Translations under genes and position numbers: made by a program
The notes under the pieces: generated by a model
What the model was told of the DNA's origin: nothing
The model's input: the letters and a program-made list of their open reading frames with translations, nothing else
Databases searched by the model: none
DNA from: Pseudomonadota bacterium
Lineage (GTDB): Bacteria > Pseudomonadota > Gammaproteobacteria > CALCKW01
Length of the DNA stretch: 64,000 nt
Direction of reading: 5' to 3'
Assembly: GCA_039196715.1 (NCBI GenBank)
Contig: JBCCUP010000001.1
Location: forward strand, 62,001-126,000
Part shown: piece after piece, positions 4,323 through 15,856 of the stretch
How positions within the stretch are numbered: position 1 is the stretch's first letter
Layout of the letters: each line of letters starts with the position of its first letter

Positions 4323-5558
4323 ATGACCCCGACGCCCACCGTGGCGTCCCTCGTGGGCGCGCCGTCACCGGTGCAGGCCTACCCGTTCACGGTGGAGTCA
4401 GCCCGGCAACGGTGCACCTTCAACGGCACGGTGGCAATCAGTCAGGTCGTGCAACTGCTCGGGCTGCGCGAGGGCGACCGCGTGTTGCTGCCAGCCTACG
4501 TGTGCGGCTCGGAGCTCGGCCCCTTCGAACACGCCGGCTGCGTGTTGGCATTCTACCGCGTGCACCCGAACCTCCAAATCGATCTGGCCGACCTCGAACG
4601 CGCGCTCGAGACCCCGACACGGGCCGTGTTGCTCACGCACTACTTCGGCTTTCCGCAACGTGACACGGCCCGGGCCCGCGCGCTGTGCGATGCCGCCGGT
4701 GCCGCCTTGATCGAGGATTGTGCGCACGCGCTCTTCTCGACGGACGGCGCAGCACCGGTCGGGCAAATCGGCGACTACGCGGTGTTCAGCCCGCGAAAAT
4801 CCCTGCCGCTGGCCGACGGTGGCCTGGTGGTGGGTCGACAGGCCCTGGCCGACACCCCGGCGTGGCCCGCTCGGCGCCCGCCGCTGTTGCCCACACTTGA
4901 TCGCGTGGTGTACGGACTGCAACAGTCCGCGCGGGCAGTGCCCGGCGCAGGCGGCGGCGGTCGGCTGGCGATTGCGGCCCTGTTGCCCTTCGCGGTTGCG
5001 ATCAAGGCTTTGCGGCGGCTCGTCCGCCTACCCGATTGGGCCTGGGCAACCGCGGATGTCGAGGGCCCGGCAGCGGTGCCGTTCTACCCCTGTCGGATGT
5101 CCTGGTACGGCGCGCGGGCGCTGCGTCGGGTCGACGCCTCGAGTGTGGTCACCGCCCGTCGACGGCATTACCGGCAGTGGGCTCGTGCGCTGGCCGACGT
5201 CGACGGTGTGTCGCTGCTGTTCGACACCCTGCCCGACGGGGTCTGCCCGCTCTACTGTCCGATTCTCGTCGACGCCCCCGACGCGCTCGTCGCCAACCTG
5301 GCCGCCGACGACGTCGAAGTGTTTCGCTGGTGGCCGCACCTGCACCCGGCGATCGCGTGGGCGGAGCACCCGGCACTGGTCGCGCTCAAGGCGCGCTCGG
5401 TTGCCCTGCCGGTTCATCAGCAGCTCACACCCGAGCAGATCGACGTCCTGGCGGCCCGACTGCGCGCCGCCGTCAGCGAGACGGCCAATGCGGCAGTCAA
5501 CGACGTTCACACCGACACCCACGTGTCGGACACCCCCGAGGCACGACGGGCGTGGTAG
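4323..5558 (+). CDS. DegT/DnrJ/EryC1-like PLP aminotransferase (411 aa)
   Basis: Fold-type I PLP enzyme of the sugar aminotransferase family. It shows the NGTVAI phosphate-binding stretch (about residue 35), PAYVCGSE, the LIEDCAHA block carrying the PLP-binding Asp (D132), and FSPRKSLPLADGG with the probable Schiff-base lysine at K159. Such enzymes make amino sugars for surface glycans. The ATG at 4323 is chosen because the paralogue at 7168 has the same MTP[AT]P start motif; GTG at 4278 is an in-frame alternative. Its end overlaps the flippase gene by 7 bp. The DegT-flippase pair is repeated at 7168-9953. Substrate unknown. Confidence 0.82.
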   Translation: MTPTPTVASLVGAPSPVQAYPFTVESARQRCTFNGTVAISQVVQLLGLREGDRVLLPAYVCGSELGPFEHAGCVLAFYRVHPNLQIDLADLERALETPTRAVLLTHYFGFPQRDTARARALCDAAGAALIEDCAHALFSTDGAAPVGQIGDYAVFSPRKSLPLADGGLVVGRQALADTPAWPARRPPLLPTLDRVVYGLQQSARAVPGAGGGGRLAIAALLPFAVAIKALRRLVRLPDWAWATADVEGPAAVPFYPCRMSWYGARALRRVDASSVVTARRRHYRQWARALADVDGVSLLFDTLPDGVCPLYCPILVDAPDALVANLAADDVEVFRWWPHLHPAIAWAEHPALVALKARSVALPVHQQLTPEQIDVLAARLRAAVSETANAAVNDVHTDTHVSDTPEARRAW

Positions 5559-7036
5559 CGGTCGTCCGGCACTTCCGCAACTACCTGTCCGCCGGGCTGA
5601 TCGGCAGCCTGATCGGCCTGGTGAGCTTCCCCTTGCTCACGCGGTCGCTGAGCGTCGAGGAGTACGGCTGGCTGGGTCTGGTGTCCGCGACTCTGACGGT
5701 GTTCATCAGCTTCGGCAAATTCGGCATTCAGTCCGCGCTGCTGCGCTTCTTCAGTGAGGCGCGCGCACAGAGCGCCGAGGCGCTGACAACGCTGCTGTCC
5801 AGTATTGCAGGCCTGGCAATTCTGCTGTCAGTCCTGTCGCTCGCCGTCTGGCTGATCTACAGCACCTGGATCGTACCCGGACTGCCCGACGGCGAGATGA
5901 TGCGACGCCTCTACTACATCGCAGCTGCGCTGGTGCCCATCAAGATCCTCTTCAGCATCACCACCAGCGTCATGAAAGCCGACGAAAAAAGCGGGTTCCT
6001 CGGCACCGTGACCGTGAGTGAGAAGGCCGCGAAGCTGTTGCTGATCGTGTTGATCATCTACACCGTCGGTGCCACCGCAGAATGGGTCATGGCGTCCACC
6101 GTCCTGGTGGAGCTCGTCATCCTGGCCTGGGTGATGCGCCGCGGCAGCCACTACCTCGGCGGTTCGCGCCCGCGTCTGTCGGTTCCCGTACTGACGCCGC
6201 TCGTCGCGTTCGGCCTGCCGGCCATGGCCGGGGAGATGGTGGCCGTGGCGCTCGAAGTGGGCGACCGCTACGTCATCCAGGCCTTCATGGGCGGCGAGGC
6301 CCTGGGCCAGTACGCGGCCTCCGTCAACATCAGCATGTACCTCGAATGGGTGCTGATCCTGGCCTTGCAGAGCGCCATCGTGCCCTACTACGTGCGCCTC
6401 TACGAGGAGCGCGGCCGTGCGGAGACGCTGCGCTTCCTGAACGGCGCATTCGAGGTGTACGCCGCAGTGGCGCTCGGTGTGTTCGCGGTATTCAGCGCTG
6501 CGGCACCGTCGTTGATCATGCTGCTCGCGGGCGAGCGCTACGCGCCGGGTGTCATCGTCATCCCGTGGTTCGCTGCCGCGTTCGTGCTGCTCGGGTCGGT
6601 GTCGATCGCCGCGGCGGGCATCTACATCGACAAGCGCCCGCGAGCACTCGCGAAATGGGTGTTGGTCGCCTTCGTGACCAACGTCAGCCTCAACATCCTG
6701 ACCGTGCCGATCTGGGGTCTGCAGGCCGCCGCCGTGACCACCTTCGTGTCGATGAACGTGCAGTGTCTGGGCGTCTACTGGGAAGCGCACCGCACGATGC
6801 CGGTCAAGCCGCCGCTGGCGGTGGGCGCCATCAGCGTCTTTGCGGCACTGCTGGCGCTGTTTGCGAGCCGTCAGCTGCCGGCGGCCGGGCATTTCACCGA
6901 CATGGTTCTGCGCGGCACCGCTGCGACGCTGCTGTACGCACTGACCGTGCTGGCGCTGAGTCCGACACTGCGACGCACCGCGTTCGAACGCGTGCAGGCC
7001 TGGCGCACCCAGCAGGTGAACCGACGCGCAACCTGA
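5552..7036 (+). CDS. Wzx-like polysaccharide flippase, MOP superfamily, copy 1 (494 aa)
   Basis: Multi-pass inner-membrane protein with about 12-14 hydrophobic segments. It begins with an N-terminal HFRNYLSAGLIGSLIGL helix and the FPLLTRSLSVEEYG motif typical of Wzx/O-antigen flippases. GTG at 5552 is chosen because it overlaps the preceding stop and because copy 2 starts at the equivalent position (GTG-L-K-HFRNY). It is expected to flip a lipid-linked glycan or related lipid across the inner membrane. It is clearly paralogous to the protein at 8496, sharing long identical stretches around residues 10-60 and 330-370. No glycosyltransferase or polymerase gene is present nearby. Confidence 0.87.
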   Translation: MVAVVRHFRNYLSAGLIGSLIGLVSFPLLTRSLSVEEYGWLGLVSATLTVFISFGKFGIQSALLRFFSEARAQSAEALTTLLSSIAGLAILLSVLSLAVWLIYSTWIVPGLPDGEMMRRLYYIAAALVPIKILFSITTSVMKADEKSGFLGTVTVSEKAAKLLLIVLIIYTVGATAEWVMASTVLVELVILAWVMRRGSHYLGGSRPRLSVPVLTPLVAFGLPAMAGEMVAVALEVGDRYVIQAFMGGEALGQYAASVNISMYLEWVLILALQSAIVPYYVRLYEERGRAETLRFLNGAFEVYAAVALGVFAVFSAAAPSLIMLLAGERYAPGVIVIPWFAAAFVLLGSVSIAAAGIYIDKRPRALAKWVLVAFVTNVSLNILTVPIWGLQAAAVTTFVSMNVQCLGVYWEAHRTMPVKPPLAVGAISVFAALLALFASRQLPAAGHFTDMVLRGTAATLLYALTVLALSPTLRRTAFERVQAWRTQQVNRRAT

Positions 7037-7167
7037 CCGGCCGGCTGCACCGGCGAGCCGCGACGACCCGCACGCGCCGACCCTGAATTTTTCTGCTCGC
7101 CCGCCGCTGCACTCGGAAGTGTGCTCAGCGCACCACCCACGCCAGCCACGCCACGGAGCGTCCGGAC

Positions 7168-8376
7168 ATGCCCACGCGCGCCCACGCGAAAACGCCACCA
7201 GAAACGCCCTCCGTCGCCATGACCCCCGCGCCACACCTGGCTCACTGGCGGGCCAGGCCCGGCGCGGTGGAGCGCTATCCGTTGACCGTGCCGTCCGCCT
7301 ACCGGTGTGACACGTTCACGGACCAGGCCGCAGTGGCCCGCTTGATCGAGGTCCTGGCGTTGAAGCCGGACGACCGCGTGCTGCTGCCGGTGTTGCAGTT
7401 CGAGCGCCAGTTCGACGCGTTGATTGCACGGTCGTGCGAACGCGCCATCTACGCCGTCGACGCGCAGATGCAAGTCGACCTCGCCGACTTCGAAGCCAAG
7501 TTGATCCGCGGCGCCCAGGCGGCAGTCGTATCGCACTACTTCGGCTTGCCGCAACGGGCGATGCGTGCCATCGCCGCGCTTTGTCAGCGCCACGGCGCGG
7601 CGTTGATCGAGGACTGCACACAGTCCATGTTTTCATCGGTTGACGGCGTGCCCACCGGCCAGTTCGGTGACTACGCGTTGTTCAGCCCGCACCGCGTACT
7701 GCCGGTGCTCGAAGGCGGCCTGTTGGTGTCACGCACCGAACTGCCGGTCGACACCGAGACGCGCGAACCCTCGCTGCTGCCCACCCTGGCGCACTACGCC
7801 GAGCGGGCGTTGCGTGCTGACGTTCCGGAACACACTGGCCCACGCTGGATGCACAGCACCGCCCTGCACCTTGCAGCGCGCATCGAGGCCACCGTCAACG
7901 CCCTCTGGCCCGGCGAGTCGAATCCCTGGTGTGTGACACCAACGGCGGCGGAAGCCCACTCACCCAAGCCGCCGTTCAGCGTCTCGGCCGTGGCCCGCGC
8001 TGCGCTCGAGCGGGCCAACGCAAACGAGATCGTGGACGCCCGTCGCGCGCATTTTGCGCGCTGGCTCGACTGCCTGCGCCACCACGACCGGTTCGAGCCA
8101 CTCGTCGACGAACTGCCAGACGGGGTCAACCCCTTGTACTTTCCCGTATTGACTGACGCGCCCGAAAGCGTCGTTACTGGGCTTGCCGAGCTCGACATCG
8201 AAGCGCGCAGCTGGCCGCGCCCGTTGCTCGAGGTCGCCGGGCTCACGCCGCGCCCCGAGTGGGACAAATTCGCCCGTATTGTCGCGCTTCCGATACATCA
8301 GCAGTTGACCGGCGCGTGTATTTCCCACGTGTCAGACAACTTGCCGGGGCACGAGGGCTATACTGACGCAGCTTGA
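7168..8376 (+). CDS. DegT-like protein lacking the PLP lysine (402 aa), probable pseudoenzyme
   Basis: Paralogue of the protein at 4323: it shares SHYFGLPQRA, AALIEDC, GQFGDYALFSP and the C-terminal ALPIHQQL region. The position of the Schiff-base lysine is arginine (R176 in FSPHRVLPVLEGG), and the NGT phosphate-binding motif is replaced by TDQ. These are direct sequence observations; loss of aminotransferase activity is inferred. The ATG at 7168 has GGAG nine bases upstream; ATG at 7219 would align with the start of copy 1. The reading frame is intact and coding-like, so the gene is maintained rather than decaying. It could act as a scaffold, regulator or binding partner of copy 1. Confidence 0.8.
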   Translation: MPTRAHAKTPPETPSVAMTPAPHLAHWRARPGAVERYPLTVPSAYRCDTFTDQAAVARLIEVLALKPDDRVLLPVLQFERQFDALIARSCERAIYAVDAQMQVDLADFEAKLIRGAQAAVVSHYFGLPQRAMRAIAALCQRHGAALIEDCTQSMFSSVDGVPTGQFGDYALFSPHRVLPVLEGGLLVSRTELPVDTETREPSLLPTLAHYAERALRADVPEHTGPRWMHSTALHLAARIEATVNALWPGESNPWCVTPTAAEAHSPKPPFSVSAVARAALERANANEIVDARRAHFARWLDCLRHHDRFEPLVDELPDGVNPLYFPVLTDAPESVVTGLAELDIEARSWPRPLLEVAGLTPRPEWDKFARIVALPIHQQLTGACISHVSDNLPGHEGYTDAA

Positions 8377-8495
8377 GTCAGGCAGGGTCCGGGCAAAACC
8401 AAGTTGTACAATTTTCCCAGGGCAAGCACGCCGGCAGTTCGCGGCCGCGTTGGCCCGCATCGAACGAGCTGATGTAGAAGGCCGCCAAACAAGCT

Positions 8496-9953
8496 GTGTT
8501 AAAGCACTTCAGAAACTACGCCTCAGCGGGGTTGATCGGCAGCCTGATCGGGTTGGTCACCTTCCCGTTGCTGACCCGCAACCTGAGCGTCGACGCCTAC
8601 GGCTGGCTCGGGCTGGTGTCGGTCACGGTGACGGTCTTCATCGGCATCGGCAAACTCGGCATGCAGACGGCGATGCTGCGCTTTTTCGGCGAGGCGCGCG
8701 CGCAGGGCGAACGGCAGCTCGCCGACCTCATGGGCACCATGGCCGGGGCCACCCTGTTGTTGGCTGGCGCGAGCCTGGTGCTGTGGTTGCTGTACACCGC
8801 ATTCGTGGTGCCGCTGCTGCCCGATGGCCAGACAGCCGTGCCGCTGTTCTACGTCGCGGCCGCCCTGGTGCCAATCAAGGTGGTGTTCAGCATTGCCAGC
8901 AGCGTGCTCAAGGCCGATCAGCGCAGCGGTGTGCTGGGCACGCTCACGATCATTGAAAAAGCCCTGAAGCTCAGTTTCATTGTCCTGATTGTCACCGCGC
9001 TCGGCGTCAGCAGCGAGAAGGTGATGGCCTCGACCGTGGTCGTCGAACTCATCACGCTGCTGCTGGTGTTGTACCTCGGCCGACAGTACTTGCGCGATGC
9101 GCAACCGCACCTCTCGCGGTCGAAGATGAAGCCACTGATCGCCTTCGGCCTGCCGGCGATGACGGCCGAACTGATCACCGTGCTGTTGGAGACCGGCGAC
9201 CGCTACGTGGTGCAGGCGTATCTCGGCAGCGTCGAACTCGGCCACTACTCGGCTGCTGTGAACATCTGCCTGTACCTCGAGTTCGTGCTGATCCTCTCGC
9301 TTCAGAGCGCGATCGTGCCGCACTACGTCAAGCTGTTCGAAGAGCGCGGTCGCGAGGCCACCCTCGCCTTCCTGAACACGACCCTGCGCTACTACTTCGC
9401 GGTCGCACTGGGCATCTTCGCCGTGTTCTCGGCCACGGCGCCTGTGCTGCTGATCCTGCTCGCCGGTGAGCGCTACGAGCCCGGCGTGGTGGTCATCATC
9501 TGGTTCGCAGCCGGTTTTGTCGCGCTCGGCTCCGTGTCGATCGCGGCCGCCGGGATCTACATCGACAAACGCACACGCGCCCTGGTCCGATGGGGCGCCG
9601 TGGCTTTCGTGGTCAACATCACCCTGAACGTGCTGCTGGTGCCGGTTTTCGGCCTGATCGCGGCCGGTATATCCACCTTCGTTGCCTTGTCGATTCAGTG
9701 CCTTGGCGTCTACCGAGAGGGCTACAGGACCCTGCCGGTTGCCCCACCCCTGGCCACCGTGGGCGTGTGCCTGATCGCGGCCCTGGCCGCCTTGCTCGCC
9801 GCGACGTCGGTCCAGCAGGGGTACGGACTCGGTGATCTGTTTGCCGTCGGCACGGTGTCCACGCTGACCTACGTGGTCGTGCTGCTCACCCTCAGCGGGC
9901 AGCTCCGATCGGACTTCATCGGCTACCTCAGAGGCCGTCTCGGCGCCGCCTAG
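8496..9953 (+). CDS. Wzx-like polysaccharide flippase, copy 2 (485 aa)
   Basis: Same architecture as the protein at 5552: N-terminal HFRNYASAGLIGSLIGL, FPLLTRNLSVDAYGWLG, and about 12-14 membrane segments through to LLAGERYEPGVVVI and IAAAGIYIDKR near the C-terminal third. GTG at 8496 gives the matching N-terminus. A 119-bp gap with no gene separates it from the DegT-like gene upstream. Having two flippases, each paired with a DegT-like protein, suggests duplication of a two-gene module with possible divergence of the flipped substrate. Confidence 0.87.
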   Translation: MLKHFRNYASAGLIGSLIGLVTFPLLTRNLSVDAYGWLGLVSVTVTVFIGIGKLGMQTAMLRFFGEARAQGERQLADLMGTMAGATLLLAGASLVLWLLYTAFVVPLLPDGQTAVPLFYVAAALVPIKVVFSIASSVLKADQRSGVLGTLTIIEKALKLSFIVLIVTALGVSSEKVMASTVVVELITLLLVLYLGRQYLRDAQPHLSRSKMKPLIAFGLPAMTAELITVLLETGDRYVVQAYLGSVELGHYSAAVNICLYLEFVLILSLQSAIVPHYVKLFEERGREATLAFLNTTLRYYFAVALGIFAVFSATAPVLLILLAGERYEPGVVVIIWFAAGFVALGSVSIAAAGIYIDKRTRALVRWGAVAFVVNITLNVLLVPVFGLIAAGISTFVALSIQCLGVYREGYRTLPVAPPLATVGVCLIAALAALLAATSVQQGYGLGDLFAVGTVSTLTYVVVLLTLSGQLRSDFIGYLRGRLGAA

Positions 9954-9969
9954 CGCCGGTTTCACCGGG

Positions 9970-9986
9970 GCCGCTTTGCGAGCGGC
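9970..9986. repeat. GC-rich hairpin after flippase 2
   Basis: A six-base perfect inverted repeat (GCCGCT / AGCGGC) with a five-base loop lies 16 bp downstream of the flippase stop. There is no T-run, so it is not a convincing intrinsic terminator. It may be a weak transcript-end or stabilising structure in the 184-bp gap before the aminotransferase gene. Confidence 0.3.
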
Positions 9987-10137
9987 TCGAGGCGCACGCC
10001 GCCCGGTGTGTGATCCCGTTCTCAAAATACGCCTTACAAGCTCAATACCATCGCGGACGGTGCCGCTAGCCCCATTGTCTGCGTGGAACCGAGCTTCGCA
10101 GTGCATTTCTCAACAGCCACAACAGTGCGGAGCCAGT

Positions 10138-11406
10138 ATGGAGAGCATTGCTCGCTTAGAGTCCGAGGTCAGGGGGTACGTGAGGTCCTTTCCGACCGTG
10201 TTCACGCAATCGCGCAACGCCCACCTGTGGGACGAGCAGGGCCGGCAGTACATTGATTTCTTTGCCGGTGCCGGAACGCTCAACTACGGCCACAATCACC
10301 CGCGCATCAAGGCCGCTCTGCTCGACCATATCCAGCAGGACGGTGTGTTGCACGGGCTCGACCTCGCCACAAGCGCCAAGATCCGCTTTCTCGAGACCTT
10401 CGAATCGGTCATTCTTCGGCCCCGCCAGCTCGACTACCGCTTGCAGTTCACCGGACCGACCGGGACCAACGCGATCGAGGCCGCCATCAAGGTGGCGCGC
10501 AAGGCCAAGTCGCGCTCGCACGTGGTGGCGTTCACGAACGCCTACCACGGCCACAGCCTCGGTGCCCTGGCTCTGACCGGTAACCGCCGGTACCACAACG
10601 AGCACTACGGTTCGCACAACAACGTCAGCCACCTGCCCTTTGACGGCTACTTCGGACCGGGGACAGACACTGCGGCGCAACTGCGTGCGCTGTTGCAGGA
10701 CGGCAGCAGCGGCCTGCCGATCCCGGCTGCGATCGTGCTGGAGACGATCCAGGCCGAAGGCGGGATCAACGTGGCTTCCGACGATTGGTTGCGGGCCATC
10801 CGCGCCCTGTGCAACGACTTCGACATCGCACTGATCATCGACGACATCCAGGTTGGCAACGGCCGCACCGGGACCTTCTTCAGCTTCGAGTCCGCGGGCA
10901 TCCGACCGGACATCGTCTGCCTGTCGAAGGCGATCGGCGGCGGCCTGCCGATGTCGGTCGTGCTGATCGATCCGGCCCTCGACGTGTGGCAGCCGGGCGA
11001 GCACACAGGCACCTTCCGCGGTAACCAATTGGCCTTCGTCGCCGCGAGCGCCGCGCTGCCTCTGTGGCGCGAAGACACCTTTGCACACCAGCTCAAGCGC
11101 AACGCCACCTCGGTGGAGACCCGCCTGAACGCCCTGGCCCAACAGCACGACCTGCCTCCGGCGCGGGGCCGCGGGATGATCTGGGGTCTGTGTCTGCCCA
11201 GCCAGGCCGCGGCGGACGCGGTGACGCAGGCGTGTTTCGAACACGGCCTGATCATTGAAACGGCTGGCGCCGAGGGGAACGTGCTGAAATTCCTTGCGCC
11301 GCTGACCATCGAACACGACACGCTCGCGCGCGGACTCGAGATCCTCGAATACGCGCTGCAACAGTGTGCGCCCATCCACGACGACAAGCGGGTTGCCATA
11401 CCGTGA
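10138..11406 (+). CDS. Class III aminotransferase, EctB/diaminobutyrate-type (422 aa)
   Basis: PLP enzyme of the omega-aminotransferase family. Motifs: FAGAGTLNYGHNHP near residue 42, the GPTGTNAIEAA cofactor pocket (about 106), NAYHGHSLGAL, IIDDIQVGNGRTGTFFSFE carrying the PLP-binding Asp, and CLSKAIGGGLPM with the Schiff-base lysine K264. This pattern matches L-2,4-diaminobutyrate:2-oxoglutarate transaminases (EctB/Dat), which convert aspartate semialdehyde to diaminobutyrate. No ectA or ectC neighbour is seen, so ectoine synthesis is unlikely. The next gene (GTGA overlap) encodes an amino-acid-type adenylation protein, suggesting that the diamino acid made here is activated there. ATG at 10138 has GGAG just upstream. 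Confidence 0.85.
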   Translation: MESIARLESEVRGYVRSFPTVFTQSRNAHLWDEQGRQYIDFFAGAGTLNYGHNHPRIKAALLDHIQQDGVLHGLDLATSAKIRFLETFESVILRPRQLDYRLQFTGPTGTNAIEAAIKVARKAKSRSHVVAFTNAYHGHSLGALALTGNRRYHNEHYGSHNNVSHLPFDGYFGPGTDTAAQLRALLQDGSSGLPIPAAIVLETIQAEGGINVASDDWLRAIRALCNDFDIALIIDDIQVGNGRTGTFFSFESAGIRPDIVCLSKAIGGGLPMSVVLIDPALDVWQPGEHTGTFRGNQLAFVAASAALPLWREDTFAHQLKRNATSVETRLNALAQQHDLPPARGRGMIWGLCLPSQAAADAVTQACFEHGLIIETAGAEGNVLKFLAPLTIEHDTLARGLEILEYALQQCAPIHDDKRVAIP

Positions 11407-14024
11407 CTGGTCCGGCCCATCAACACGGCATCGTTGATGACACGGTTCTTGCCGCGTTCGCGCGGCGCGTCGCGCTGGACGGCGCCAAGCCGGCCGTCGA
11501 GCACGACGGGCGTGCACTGAGCTACAGCGAGCTGGATCGCTACGCCGCCGACATTGCCGTTCGCCTCACCGAGCTCGGCGTTGGCGAAAACCACACCGTG
11601 GGCCTCTGTCTGTCGCATTCGCTGCACGCCGTTGCCGCCATGCTGGCCTGCCTGAAAGTGCAAGCCGTCTTTGTGCCCCTCGACCCGCAGAATCCCGAGG
11701 ACAGGACCCGCTACATGGTGGACGATGCGGGCGTCTCCTCGGTGTTGTGCACCGAGGATACGCACAAGACGGTAGCCGCCGTCGGCTTGCCCGCGGTCGT
11801 GTTGCTCGACGACGGCATCCGGTTCTCCGACGCACACCACGCCACCGACACCGACCCGGACGCCCGCGCGTACGTGATGTACACCTCCGGCTCCACCGGC
11901 CAGCCAAAGGGCGTGCAGATCAGTCACCGTGCACTGATCAGTTACTGCAAGGCTGACGCGACGGTCTACGCACTCGAGGCGAGCGACCGGACGCTGCAGT
12001 TCTCGACGCTGAGCTTCGACATCGCGATCGAGGAGATCTTTCCACCGCTGTGCACTGGCGGCACCGTTGTCATGCGACCGAGCGAGCGCAGTGAGGCGCA
12101 CGTCGAGCTCAGTGAAATCGTCGAGACCCACGCCATCAGCTGCCTGCACATCGCGACCGGCTACTGGCACGAGTGGGTTGACCTGATGGCCGCTTTCGCC
12201 CAGCGGGTGCCGGCCTCGGTCCGCCTGATGGTGGTCACCGGTGAGAAGGTGTCGGTCGAGCACTACAAACGCTGGCGGAGCCTGAGCGACCACGACACGC
12301 TCTGGGTCAACGCCTACGGGCCCACTGAGACCACCGTGTCGGCCACGGCGTTCGTGCCGGGGGCCGATTGGGACGGCAGCGACCTGCCGATCGGCAAGCC
12401 GCTGCCCGGCTACAGCGCGTACATCCTCGACGCCGCTGGCCACGACGTGACACCCGGCGAAACCGGCGAGCTGCTGATCGGTGGACCGGCTCTGGCGGAC
12501 GGGTACCTGAACAAGAGCGAGCAGACACAGGCCGCCTTCGTTCGCCATCCGCACAGGCCCGAATTGCCGTTGTATCGCACCGGCGACCTGGCCCGCTGGC
12601 TGCCGAGCGGTGACATCGCATTCGCCGGTCGCATCGATCATCAAATCAAGGTCGGCTCCTACCGCGTCGAACCGGGGGAAATCGAAAACACGCTGAACGC
12701 CCAACCGGGCGTGCTCGAATCGCTGGTTGTGCCGCTGTCGGTTGACGGCCGCAACCGCCTGTTAGCCTACGTGGCAACGGGTCCGGTGTCGCTGGATCTC
12801 GACACGCTGGCCATCAACCTGCGGCACGCCTTGCCCGACTACATGGTGCCGAACCACTTCGTCACCCTCGCGCGCTTCGAGAAAACCGTCAACGGCAAGG
12901 TCGACCGCGCAAGACTGCCCGACCCGGCGACTGCACGCTCGCCGAAACGCGCTGACTACGTTGCCCCGATCAACGCCACCGAGTCGGCATTGCAAACCAT
13001 CTGGCAGGCGGTCCTGGACGTGCCCGATATCGGCGTCGAGGACAGTTTCTTTGCCCTCGGTGGCGACTCACTGACCGCAACGCGGGTGATCGCGAAGATG
13101 CAGTCTGCTCTCGGCAAGACGCTGTCGTCGCGCGATTTCTTCTATCTCGAAACCATCAAGATGATGGCCGGGCAACTCGACGGGAAATCGGTGCCACGCA
13201 TCGTCCCGTCGCCAGTCTCGGCTTTCATCAACACGAACGGGCGGCAGCTCTACTCCGTCCTGCAAAAATCCAAGCCCAACACCAATCGGCGCCATGGCGT
13301 GTTGTTGGTGCCGCCGCTTGGCAACGAGCAACGGCGCATTCAGCGCCCGCTTCGTAACGTCATGCAGCACTTTTCGCGCGCCGGTTACACCCTGATGCGC
13401 TTTGACTGGACCGGCACCGGAAACTCCAGCGGTGACGCCGCTGACCTCGCCTCTCTCGACCCCTGGTACGCCGACCTTGTCGACAGCGCACAGGCACTGG
13501 CAGAGCACTGCAACCAGATTGACATCGTCGCCTTTCGCGTCGGCGCACTGCTGGCCTCGCATGTGGACTTTGACTCGCTGCCGATTCGGCACACCGTCTA
13601 CTGCGAGCCGGTGCTCAATGGCGCCGACTGGCTGGCCGGTCAGGAACGCCTGCAACACGACATCCTTGCAGACACCTACCGCTTCCTGCGACCGCGGGCG
13701 GTCAGGCCGGCCCGGCTGCGCGAGTACTCCGGCCTGGAGATGGGTGAGGCACTGCACACTGCGTTGCAGACCGCACGGTTCCGACCGCGCGCGGCCGGCG
13801 CCGATGGCCGCGGCACCGAGAGCCTCATCCTGCCGGCGGGCTCAGCGACCGACGGTCTGGTCGGCTACGGGCTCCACACCACGGACGACGACAACGTGTG
13901 GTACCACCACCGCAAGACCAACGCCGACATGCAGCTCAACCACACGGCACGCCTGGTCGCCGAACTGATCGACGTCCCCGCTGCACCCGGCCACGAGACG
14001 GAGCAACGTGACCATGCAGCCTGA
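11403..14024 (+). CDS. Adenylation-carrier protein fused to hydrolase-like domain (873 aa)
   Basis: Three domains. An AMP-forming adenylation domain spans about residues 15-510: YTSGSTGQPKG at 160, FDIAIEEI at 205, AYGPTE at 304, YRTGDLAR at 391 and NGKVDR with K499. A carrier domain (about 525-595) has ALGGDSLTA, with S556 as phosphopantetheine site. An alpha/beta-hydrolase-like domain (about 630-870) has the nucleophile-elbow serine replaced by R712 (AFRVG). By eye the binding-pocket code is roughly D-I-E-H-V-T-A-V-S-K; the retained Asp fits an alpha-amino acid. The domain set recalls the acyl-ligase and hydrolase-2 genes of exosortase-A-associated exopolysaccharide loci. It overlaps the EctB-like gene by 4 bp and the next hydrolase by 11 bp. 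No condensation domain is present. Confidence 0.85.
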   Translation: MTGPAHQHGIVDDTVLAAFARRVALDGAKPAVEHDGRALSYSELDRYAADIAVRLTELGVGENHTVGLCLSHSLHAVAAMLACLKVQAVFVPLDPQNPEDRTRYMVDDAGVSSVLCTEDTHKTVAAVGLPAVVLLDDGIRFSDAHHATDTDPDARAYVMYTSGSTGQPKGVQISHRALISYCKADATVYALEASDRTLQFSTLSFDIAIEEIFPPLCTGGTVVMRPSERSEAHVELSEIVETHAISCLHIATGYWHEWVDLMAAFAQRVPASVRLMVVTGEKVSVEHYKRWRSLSDHDTLWVNAYGPTETTVSATAFVPGADWDGSDLPIGKPLPGYSAYILDAAGHDVTPGETGELLIGGPALADGYLNKSEQTQAAFVRHPHRPELPLYRTGDLARWLPSGDIAFAGRIDHQIKVGSYRVEPGEIENTLNAQPGVLESLVVPLSVDGRNRLLAYVATGPVSLDLDTLAINLRHALPDYMVPNHFVTLARFEKTVNGKVDRARLPDPATARSPKRADYVAPINATESALQTIWQAVLDVPDIGVEDSFFALGGDSLTATRVIAKMQSALGKTLSSRDFFYLETIKMMAGQLDGKSVPRIVPSPVSAFINTNGRQLYSVLQKSKPNTNRRHGVLLVPPLGNEQRRIQRPLRNVMQHFSRAGYTLMRFDWTGTGNSSGDAADLASLDPWYADLVDSAQALAEHCNQIDIVAFRVGALLASHVDFDSLPIRHTVYCEPVLNGADWLAGQERLQHDILADTYRFLRPRAVRPARLREYSGLEMGEALHTALQTARFRPRAAGADGRGTESLILPAGSATDGLVGYGLHTTDDDNVWYHHRKTNADMQLNHTARLVAELIDVPAAPGHETEQRDHAA

Positions 14025-14898
14025 GATCGCACGCACCACGACGCCGCACGGCCTCGAACACACGTGCACTTTCGGGTCGGATGCACGGCTCAACGGCGTG
14101 TACACACCGCCGGTGTGTGGCGACGTCATCCTGCCTTGTGCGCTGTTTCTGACCGCCGGTCTGCTGCACCACGTCGGTCCGCACCGCTTCTACGTGGAGA
14201 TGGCCCGAGACCTCGCCGAGGTCGGTGCAGCCAGCCTGCGCTTCGACCTCGCCGGTGTCGGTGACAGCGAAACACGCAGCAGCGGATCGAGCTACGCGCA
14301 GCGCTCGGTCGAGGACGTGCGCTCGGCGATGAATCACCTGCAACGCGAGTACGGCCACAGCCAATTCGTGTTGATCGGCCTGTGCTCCGGCGCCGACGAT
14401 GCCCTGGCCACCGCGCAACAGGACAGCCGCGTCGCCGGCGCTGTCATGCTCAACGGCTACGCCTACCGCGCCGGTCAGTTTCACTGGTACCGCGCGTGGA
14501 ATTTCTTCGTGCCACGGCTGTTCATGTGGCAAAAATGGCAGAACCGCTACAACAAGCTCATGGGCCGAGCGCCGACCGACGCCTACGCCGCCGCGTCCAA
14601 CAGCCTGGACGACGACTACCGCTACATTCCGCCCCAGACAGAAACCGCGGACAATATCAACAGCCTGACCCGTCAGGGCACTCAGCTGTTGTTCATCTAC
14701 ACCGGCAGCGAACACGAGGACTACACCTACAAGGGGCAGTTCTTCGACATGTTCCCGGATGCGCGTGACAACCTGCGGGTCCGCGAGGCCTACCTCAAGG
14801 AGGCGGACCACACCCTTGTCTTGAAGAGCGACCGTAATACACTGTCGAATTGGATTCGCAGCTGGTACGCCGGCGTGCCATTCGAACGGAAACACTAG
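14014..14898 (+). CDS. Alpha/beta hydrolase with GxCxG nucleophile elbow (294 aa)
   Basis: Hydrolase fold with the oxyanion-side motif FLTAGLLHHVGPHRFY, LRFDLAGVGDSE, and the elbow GLCSGAD (residues 122-128), which makes C124 (GxCxG) the likely nucleophile. The late EADHTLVL probably supplies the catalytic histidine. It resembles the hydrolase-1 family of exosortase-A exopolysaccharide loci. Two starts are possible: ATG 14014 (GGAG ten bases upstream) and GTG 14008. It is translationally coupled to the adenylation fusion protein and could release or transfer its carrier-bound product. Substrate unknown. Confidence 0.8.
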   Translation: MQPEIARTTTPHGLEHTCTFGSDARLNGVYTPPVCGDVILPCALFLTAGLLHHVGPHRFYVEMARDLAEVGAASLRFDLAGVGDSETRSSGSSYAQRSVEDVRSAMNHLQREYGHSQFVLIGLCSGADDALATAQQDSRVAGAVMLNGYAYRAGQFHWYRAWNFFVPRLFMWQKWQNRYNKLMGRAPTDAYAAASNSLDDDYRYIPPQTETADNINSLTRQGTQLLFIYTGSEHEDYTYKGQFFDMFPDARDNLRVREAYLKEADHTLVLKSDRNTLSNWIRSWYAGVPFERKH

Positions 14899-14902
14899 CT
14901 CC

Positions 14903-15856
14903 GTGATCACCCCGAAGGTCATCAAAACACTGCTGACACAGCCGGTCGTGCACAACACGGTGTTGCCGTTCCTGCGCGCGCCCGGAGTGCGTGTGCTGAT
15001 GTACCACCGAATCGGCCGCCTGGGCAGCGAGTTCGAGGGCCTGAACATCGATGTGTTTCGCGACCACGTCGCCTGGCTCGCGACACGGTACACCCCGATT
15101 CGGCCACACGAGCTCGCCGACCCGAAGCACCAGACGCGGTCCAAGCGGCCTGCAGTGCTGTTGACCTTCGATGACGGCTACACCGACTTCTACGCCAACG
15201 CCTACCCGATCCTGCGGGAGTTCAATGTACCGGCGCTGGTCTTTCTGCCCACCGAAGCGGTGTCCGACGGTGGGACGATCTGGCCCGAACGGCTCCAATG
15301 CTGGATCAACCGGGCGCGCGCTGCGGGTGCCTACGGGGCGCTGGCCGACCTGTTCAAGCCTCAGTACGGCGACCTGATCATCAAGAACCGCCAAGTGCTG
15401 AAGTCGATGCCCGACGACGAGCGCCGCGTGATCCTGGACACCATACGCACCACACTGGATTCATTGGGCGTCGACACACACGTCGAACGGCAGATGATGA
15501 CCTGGAGCCAGATCAACAGCACACGACCGTTCATCGAGTACGGCGCACACACCCACACGCACCCGATCGTCGCGCGCATGTCACCTGCCGAATTCCAGGC
15601 CGACATGCAACGCAACTGCGAGCACCTCGAACGCGGCCTGGGCGAACGGCCCACCACCTTCGCCTGGCCCAATGGCCGCTGGGAAGACTTTTCGGAATCG
15701 GCCCTGGAGACGGTCAAGTCGTTCGGGTTCACGCAGATTTACACGACGGTCGAGGGGGTCAACCGCGGCCAGTTCAACCCGGACGAAATCCGCCGGCTCC
15801 CAACCATCACACCGGACGCCACGAGCCTCAACGCGCTGATGACGCGCGCGTCCTGA
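14903..15856 (+). CDS. Polysaccharide deacetylase, NodB domain (317 aa)
   Basis: The NodB homology core is visible: VLMYHRIG near residue 32, LLTFDDGYTDFY with the metal/catalytic Asp pair (about 85-96), VFLPTEAV, and a C-terminal GAHTHTHPI block with the HxxxxH-like metal site. These enzymes remove N- or O-acetyl groups from glycans. GTG at 14903 lies 4 bp after the hydrolase stop, so it is the last gene of the surface-glycan cluster. No signal peptide is evident, which favours a cytoplasmic or membrane-proximal role. Confidence 0.87.
   Translation: MITPKVIKTLLTQPVVHNTVLPFLRAPGVRVLMYHRIGRLGSEFEGLNIDVFRDHVAWLATRYTPIRPHELADPKHQTRSKRPAVLLTFDDGYTDFYANAYPILREFNVPALVFLPTEAVSDGGTIWPERLQCWINRARAAGAYGALADLFKPQYGDLIIKNRQVLKSMPDDERRVILDTIRTTLDSLGVDTHVERQMMTWSQINSTRPFIEYGAHTHTHPIVARMSPAEFQADMQRNCEHLERGLGERPTTFAWPNGRWEDFSESALETVKSFGFTQIYTTVEGVNRGQFNPDEIRRLPTITPDATSLNALMTRAS

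Follow-up and report, generated by a model that had tools for sequence, protein, structure and literature searches.

Exosortase A (XrtA) EPS loci comprise an acyl-CoA ligase (TIGR03098), hydrolase 1 (TIGR03100) and hydrolase 2 (TIGR03101), and we are not aware of any activity measurement on a member of this hydrolase pair. The locus described here, located in a window of 64,000 nucleotides from a marine bacterium of the Granulosicoccaceae lineage, shares with the XrtA EPS loci an adjacent pair of alpha/beta hydrolases, in which the nucleophile position is occupied by Cys in hydrolase 1 and by Arg in hydrolase 2, and an adenylating enzyme in the same set. It differs from them in the lack of an exosortase, in sub-threshold family scores, in the presence of EctB, and in an amino-acid adenylation (A) domain fused to a carrier and a hydrolase 2-like domain. 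Its EctB meets the curated cut-off of the ectoine pathway enzyme (TIGR02407) but belongs to a separate clade, in a genome that lacks EctA and carries EctC on another contig. The fusion shares an amino-acid A domain above the cut-off and a GGDSL carrier with single-module NRPS-like proteins (A-T plus a C-terminal off-loading domain), but it has no condensation domain and ends in a pseudo-hydrolase instead of a serine thioesterase; a separate Cys enzyme likely provides catalysis in trans. NRPS clusters ending in the hydrolase pair, found in Gemmatimonadota, Planctomycetota, Myxococcota, Desulfoluna, and Gammaproteobacteria, resemble the locus in that the pair follows the last module, and some carry Wzx, Wzy, glycosyltransferase (GT), or NodB; unlike the locus, they are multi-module, with Ser-like and Gly-like codes, and have no linked EctB.

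The locus consists of eight genes on the plus strand (4323–15856, Table 1), whose families agree with those given in the first-pass annotation, and is flanked by a minus-strand ABC-type (LolD/MacB/FtsX) lipoprotein-release-like block and by a CheV-type gene. The tight overlaps reported in that annotation hold for only part of the run: DegT1/Wzx1, EctB/fusion, and fusion/Cys hydrolase overlap by 7, 4, and 11 bp, respectively, and a 4-bp gap separates the hydrolase from NodB, but gaps of more than 100 bp lie at the Wzx1–DegT2, DegT2–Wzx2, and Wzx2–EctB junctions. Scanning the locus for promoters and terminators gave results no better than shuffled sequence.

Table 1. Features of the locus, in window coordinates.
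Feature	Position	Strand	Evidence
DegT1, DegT/DnrJ/EryC1-type PLP enzyme	4323..5558	+	PF01041 E 1e-25; Schiff-base Lys (SPRKSLP)
Wzx1, polysaccharide flippase	5552..7036	+	PF01943 E 1.5e-20
DegT2, diverged second DegT	7219..8376 (in-frame alternative start 7168)	+	PF01041 E 2.5e-16
Wzx2, second flippase	8496..9953	+	PF01943 E 2e-22
EctB, diaminobutyrate--2-oxoglutarate transaminase (class-III aminotransferase)	10138..11406	+	TIGR02407 603 bits
Fusion: amino-acid adenylation + carrier (GGDSL) + alpha/beta-hydrolase-fold domain	11403..14024	+	TIGR01733, PF00550, PF13193
Pseudo-hydrolase domain at the C terminus of the fusion, paired with the Cys hydrolase	13206..14024	+	Arg at nucleophile elbow
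Cys hydrolase, GxCxG (GLCSGAD), distant hydr1_PEP relative	14014..14898	+	TIGR03100 69.6 bits
NodB-type polysaccharide deacetylase	14903..15856	+	PF01522 E 1.3e-21; motifs TFDDG and HTHTHP intact

The EctB exceeds the curated TIGR02407 cut-off (552.2 bits) and is the only protein in the window genome to do so. EctA was not found in this genome, and an orphan EctC lies on another contig (L120:9607–9993), without EctA or a linked EctB. Given this gene set, the EctB of the locus is not serving ectoine synthesis. In the phylogenetic tree, EctBs adjacent to a fusion and a Cys hydrolase formed a single clade (support 100/99), apart from the ectoine EctBs of the same class. Taken with the pocket code shared by the linked A domains, the clade and the genome content point to a dedicated supply and activation of diaminobutyrate (Dab).

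The A domain of the fusion scores 394 bits against TIGR01733 (cut-off 317), the mark of an amino-acid adenylation domain, and the carrier domain matches PF00550 (E 2e-14). The pocket residues, read from an alignment to 1AMU, give the code DIEHVTAVS. Every EctB-linked A domain carries the code D[IV]EH[VI]TAV[ST] at an overall identity of 47–61%, while the other NRPSs with a hydrolase pair carry Gly-like or Ser-like codes by our own reading. Glu239 of the code recurs in published Orn and Lys codes (PMC12283262), which counts toward the Dab reading. Related fusions without an adjacent EctB also keep the code, and of five such cases examined, three have an EctB-like protein encoded elsewhere in the genome; in G370 it lies on the contig of the fusion, and in G369 it is a weaker relative. 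The genome of L064, with the same code and no linked EctB, has a full ectABC plus aspartokinase set, while the genomes of L046 and L047 contain a related fusion and no EctB at the threshold used. The L064 locus itself (4344–10001, Granulosicoccaceae strain I2M11) encodes a two-module A-T-C-A-T-hydrolase protein, whose first code is the same and whose second is Gly-like, suggesting a putative Dab-Gly product. The code D[IV]EH[VI]TAV[ST] was not found in the searched papers, and the main text of an A-domain signature survey lists no code of the DIEHVTAVS type, so the substrate assignment rests on context. Judged from the context, Dab is likely the substrate; the context is strong, but it is not proof.

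The Cys hydrolase retains a conserved Cys126 and His268 (numbered from the GTG at 14008), whereas the C-terminal hydrolase domain of the fusion has an Arg at the nucleophile elbow that is invariant in the alignment. In the predicted single-chain structures (pLDDT 90 for the fusion and 89 for the Cys hydrolase), both hydrolase domains fold with confidence as alpha/beta hydrolases, with the Cys and the Arg placed directly after the elbow strand, and fold searches with both domains matched general alpha/beta hydrolases only. The Cys hydrolase and the Arg domain are encoded in one ORF in four loci (L045, L047, L055, and L091), an arrangement that speaks for a physical complex, although some of the cases may stem from sequencing errors where the genes overlap. 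Relatives of the Cys hydrolase were collected in a scan over one genome per species, which assigned the window organism to Granulosicoccaceae and yielded 80 loci that were then subjected to gene calling and BLAST. One search pattern contained GLCSGA, and Cys conservation in the loci fetched by it is therefore partly selected; it agrees with that in two other sequence sets not so selected. Among loci scoring above the TIGR03100 cut-off, Cys is present in hydrolase 1 and Arg in the adjacent hydrolase 2 at every site covered by the alignment. The window hydrolase falls below that cut-off (168 bits), and a TIGR03100 search of the window genome returned no match at the threshold used. The likeness to exosortase-A loci proposed in the first-pass annotation is thus sharpened to a Cys/Arg signature held in common with hydrolases 1 and 2, and this pairing makes it a real one despite the absence of an exosortase.

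Glycan-type genes lie near the hydrolase pair in about 28 of the 80 loci, against one match in a 187 kb control. The pair stands behind NRPS modules and next to Wzx, Wzy, GT, or NodB in L053, L062, L070, L074, and L087, and in many further loci its neighbors are Wzx, Wzy, or EPS export genes. What these contexts most simply share is a role in moving a group bound to a carrier, frequently onto a glycan. In a Gemmatimonadota locus (L070:1504–15561), NRPS, hydrolase pair, NodB, DegT, and Wzy form a single run that is likely a peptide-decorated glycan locus. In XrtA-type EPS loci of Luteibacter and Dyella (L114:4897–15061), sub-threshold relatives of hydrolases 2 and 1 lie between the export genes and GalE/Wzx. 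A further group, observed in several phyla, comprises NRPSs with Gly-like codes (DILQxGMxW type), some also with Ser-like codes, beside the Cys/Arg pair (L048, L049, L057, L062, L063, L069, L076, L079, L084, L086, L087, L092, and L107); no name was found for this family.

The EctB–fusion–Cys hydrolase adjacency, hereafter the trio, occurs in 16 loci of two phyla, the window included. These comprise three further Granulosicoccaceae loci (L040, L041, and L043), ten loci in Planctomycetota (L050, L051, L052, L055, L059, L061, L068, L072, L080, and L083, the last from Rubripirellula obstinata CECT 8602), L082, and L123/L042, which is divided between two contigs; one proteobacterium other than Granulosicoccaceae has the trio. 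The first-pass annotation had named a gene order not conserved in related genomes as grounds against its model; the order is conserved, far beyond chance. Directly downstream of the trio lie an aspartokinase in L050 and a phosphopantetheinyl transferase in L082. Together with the linkage across two phyla, the conserved code, the dedicated EctB, and the lack of EctA, these neighbors lend good support, by inference, to the earlier proposal that a diamino acid is activated here.

The remaining genes are less constant. L041, whose chromosomal position matches that of the window locus, has Wzx and NodB; L040 has NodB beside the trio, at a contig edge; L043 has DegT and Wzx beside the trio; and in L045 and L046 DegT is the sole add-on. 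The NodB genes of L040 and L041 are orthologues in the same place as that of the window. The ten Planctomycetota loci have no conserved neighbors, and no DegT, flippase, NodB, or other glycan gene was found alongside. Because the add-ons vary in Granulosicoccaceae and are missing from the Planctomycetota neighborhoods, the core consists of the trio, with DegT, flippase, and NodB as accessories of the Granulosicoccaceae versions.

The two DegT-flippase modules noted earlier are present as two gene pairs, but by alignment they are a diverged duplication whose second DegT lacks the PLP lysine. The PLP Lys of DegT1, expected of DegT sugar aminotransferases, aligns with the Lys of its relatives in L043, L045, and L046, which have the same MTP- start, whereas DegT2 has Arg (SPHRVLP) at this position. 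DegT2 is 39% identical to DegT1 and 26–29% identical to the other relatives; Wzx2 is 59% identical to Wzx1, which in turn shares 64% identity with the sole flippase of L041. DegT2 appears to be a decaying or repurposed duplicate, and the adjoining flippase copy is intact.

Building on the observed gene content, linkage, clade structure, active-site signatures, and pocket-code conservation, we propose that EctB would convert aspartate semialdehyde to L-2,4-diaminobutyrate, which the A domain of the fusion would adenylate and load onto the adjacent carrier domain. The Cys hydrolase, with Cys126 as the nucleophile and His268, would pair in a complex with the carrier-fused, non-catalytic Arg domain and move Dab from the thioester to an acceptor. 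In Granulosicoccaceae, the acceptor would most likely be a lipid-linked amino-sugar glycan built with the help of DegT1, flipped by Wzx, and trimmed by NodB. That the hydrolase pair performs the transfer is slightly favored, a glycan acceptor in the window organism is an evenly poised suggestion, and the whole chain, from synthesis and loading of Dab through transfer by the pair to a Granulosicoccaceae glycan, has about an even chance of being correct.

Several observations count against a glycan acceptor. No GT was found among the eight genes by Pfam, in keeping with the first-pass annotation, and no Wzy either; the contig has its nearest GT about 57 kb downstream, and GTs occur only elsewhere in the genome. 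The flippases are thus present without the glycosyltransferase and polymerase or ligase that accompany them in Wzx-dependent glycan loci. A GT group on contig C5 was inspected, and nothing connects it to the operon. The surface-glycan system proposed earlier is only partly supported: DegT, flippase, and NodB accompany the Granulosicoccaceae trio, but these genes vary there and the trio stands alone in Planctomycetota; the lack of EctB at the threshold used in the L046 and L047 genomes also counts against a Dab-glycan reading. A surface sugar is probably decorated by Dab in the window organism, and glycan decoration is the best reading rather than an established one, because the accessory genes are variable, are absent from the Planctomycetota cassettes, and have no GT near them.

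The chief counter-evidence to the glycan reading is the Planctomycetota trio standing alone, which would be explained just as well by a small molecule as the product or by a housekeeping acceptor. The trio may free a small soluble Dab product, such as a Dab-derived amide, gamma-lactam, or dipeptide, with the Granulosicoccaceae sugar genes being neighbors with a separate job. The single carrier module, the Cys nucleophile, and the ten Planctomycetota loci without conserved neighbors are consistent with such a product, and Cys-nucleophile thioesterases can form small rings, as in the obafluorin and sulfazecin pathways. However, the pair belongs to the S33-like family of XrtA EPS loci rather than to NRPS-type thioesterases, and genes for Wzx, Wzy, or EPS export lie next to it in numerous other loci, which makes a soluble product rather unlikely. 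It is quite improbable that the substrate of the A domain is a different basic amino acid (Orn, Lys, or Dap) and that EctB works as some other omega-transaminase. Glu239, frequent in published Orn and Lys codes (PMC12283262), is also compatible with Orn and Lys as substrates, and the code itself was not found in the searched literature, but the EctB score above the curated cut-off, the aspartokinase after the trio in L050, and the ectABC set in the L064 genome, where the code is the same and EctB is unlinked, all speak for Dab. Least probable is a reduced XrtA polysaccharide system from which the exosortase has disappeared. This explanation draws on the signature in common with hydrolases 1 and 2 and on the pair inside the XrtA-type loci of Luteibacter and Dyella, but it is disfavored: as the first-pass annotation had stated for the locus, no exosortase is present, and none (TIGR02602) was matched in the whole window genome, which is 96% complete; TIGR03100 and TIGR03098 scores at the locus are far below the cut-offs; and no Wza, Wzc, or tyrosine kinase gene lies at the locus or beside the Planctomycetota trio.

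Literature searches combining EctB with adenylation domains, or exosortase with NRPS, returned nothing on the trio operon. As far as these tools show, the component families are known, and the arrangement, the code, and the common Cys/Arg signature are undescribed. Extending transfer of Dab by the hydrolase pair to the pair as a whole, we tentatively suggest, at somewhat less than even confidence, that it may be a general carrier-to-acceptor (amino)acyl transferase across phyla that hangs amino acids or short peptides on glycans, of which exosortase-A hydrolases 1 and 2, the Gly-ending NRPS clusters, and the Dab cassette would be three versions. The NCBIfam names of exosortase-A hydrolases 1 and 2 are still placeholders, and the Cys/Arg signature, together with the natural fusion of a carrier to the Arg partner, gives them a concrete and testable role in off-loading from a carrier. 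From the trio one may further predict a Dab-adenylation code that is conserved and seemingly undescribed, as well as molecules decorated with Dab in Planctomycetota and marine Granulosicoccaceae.
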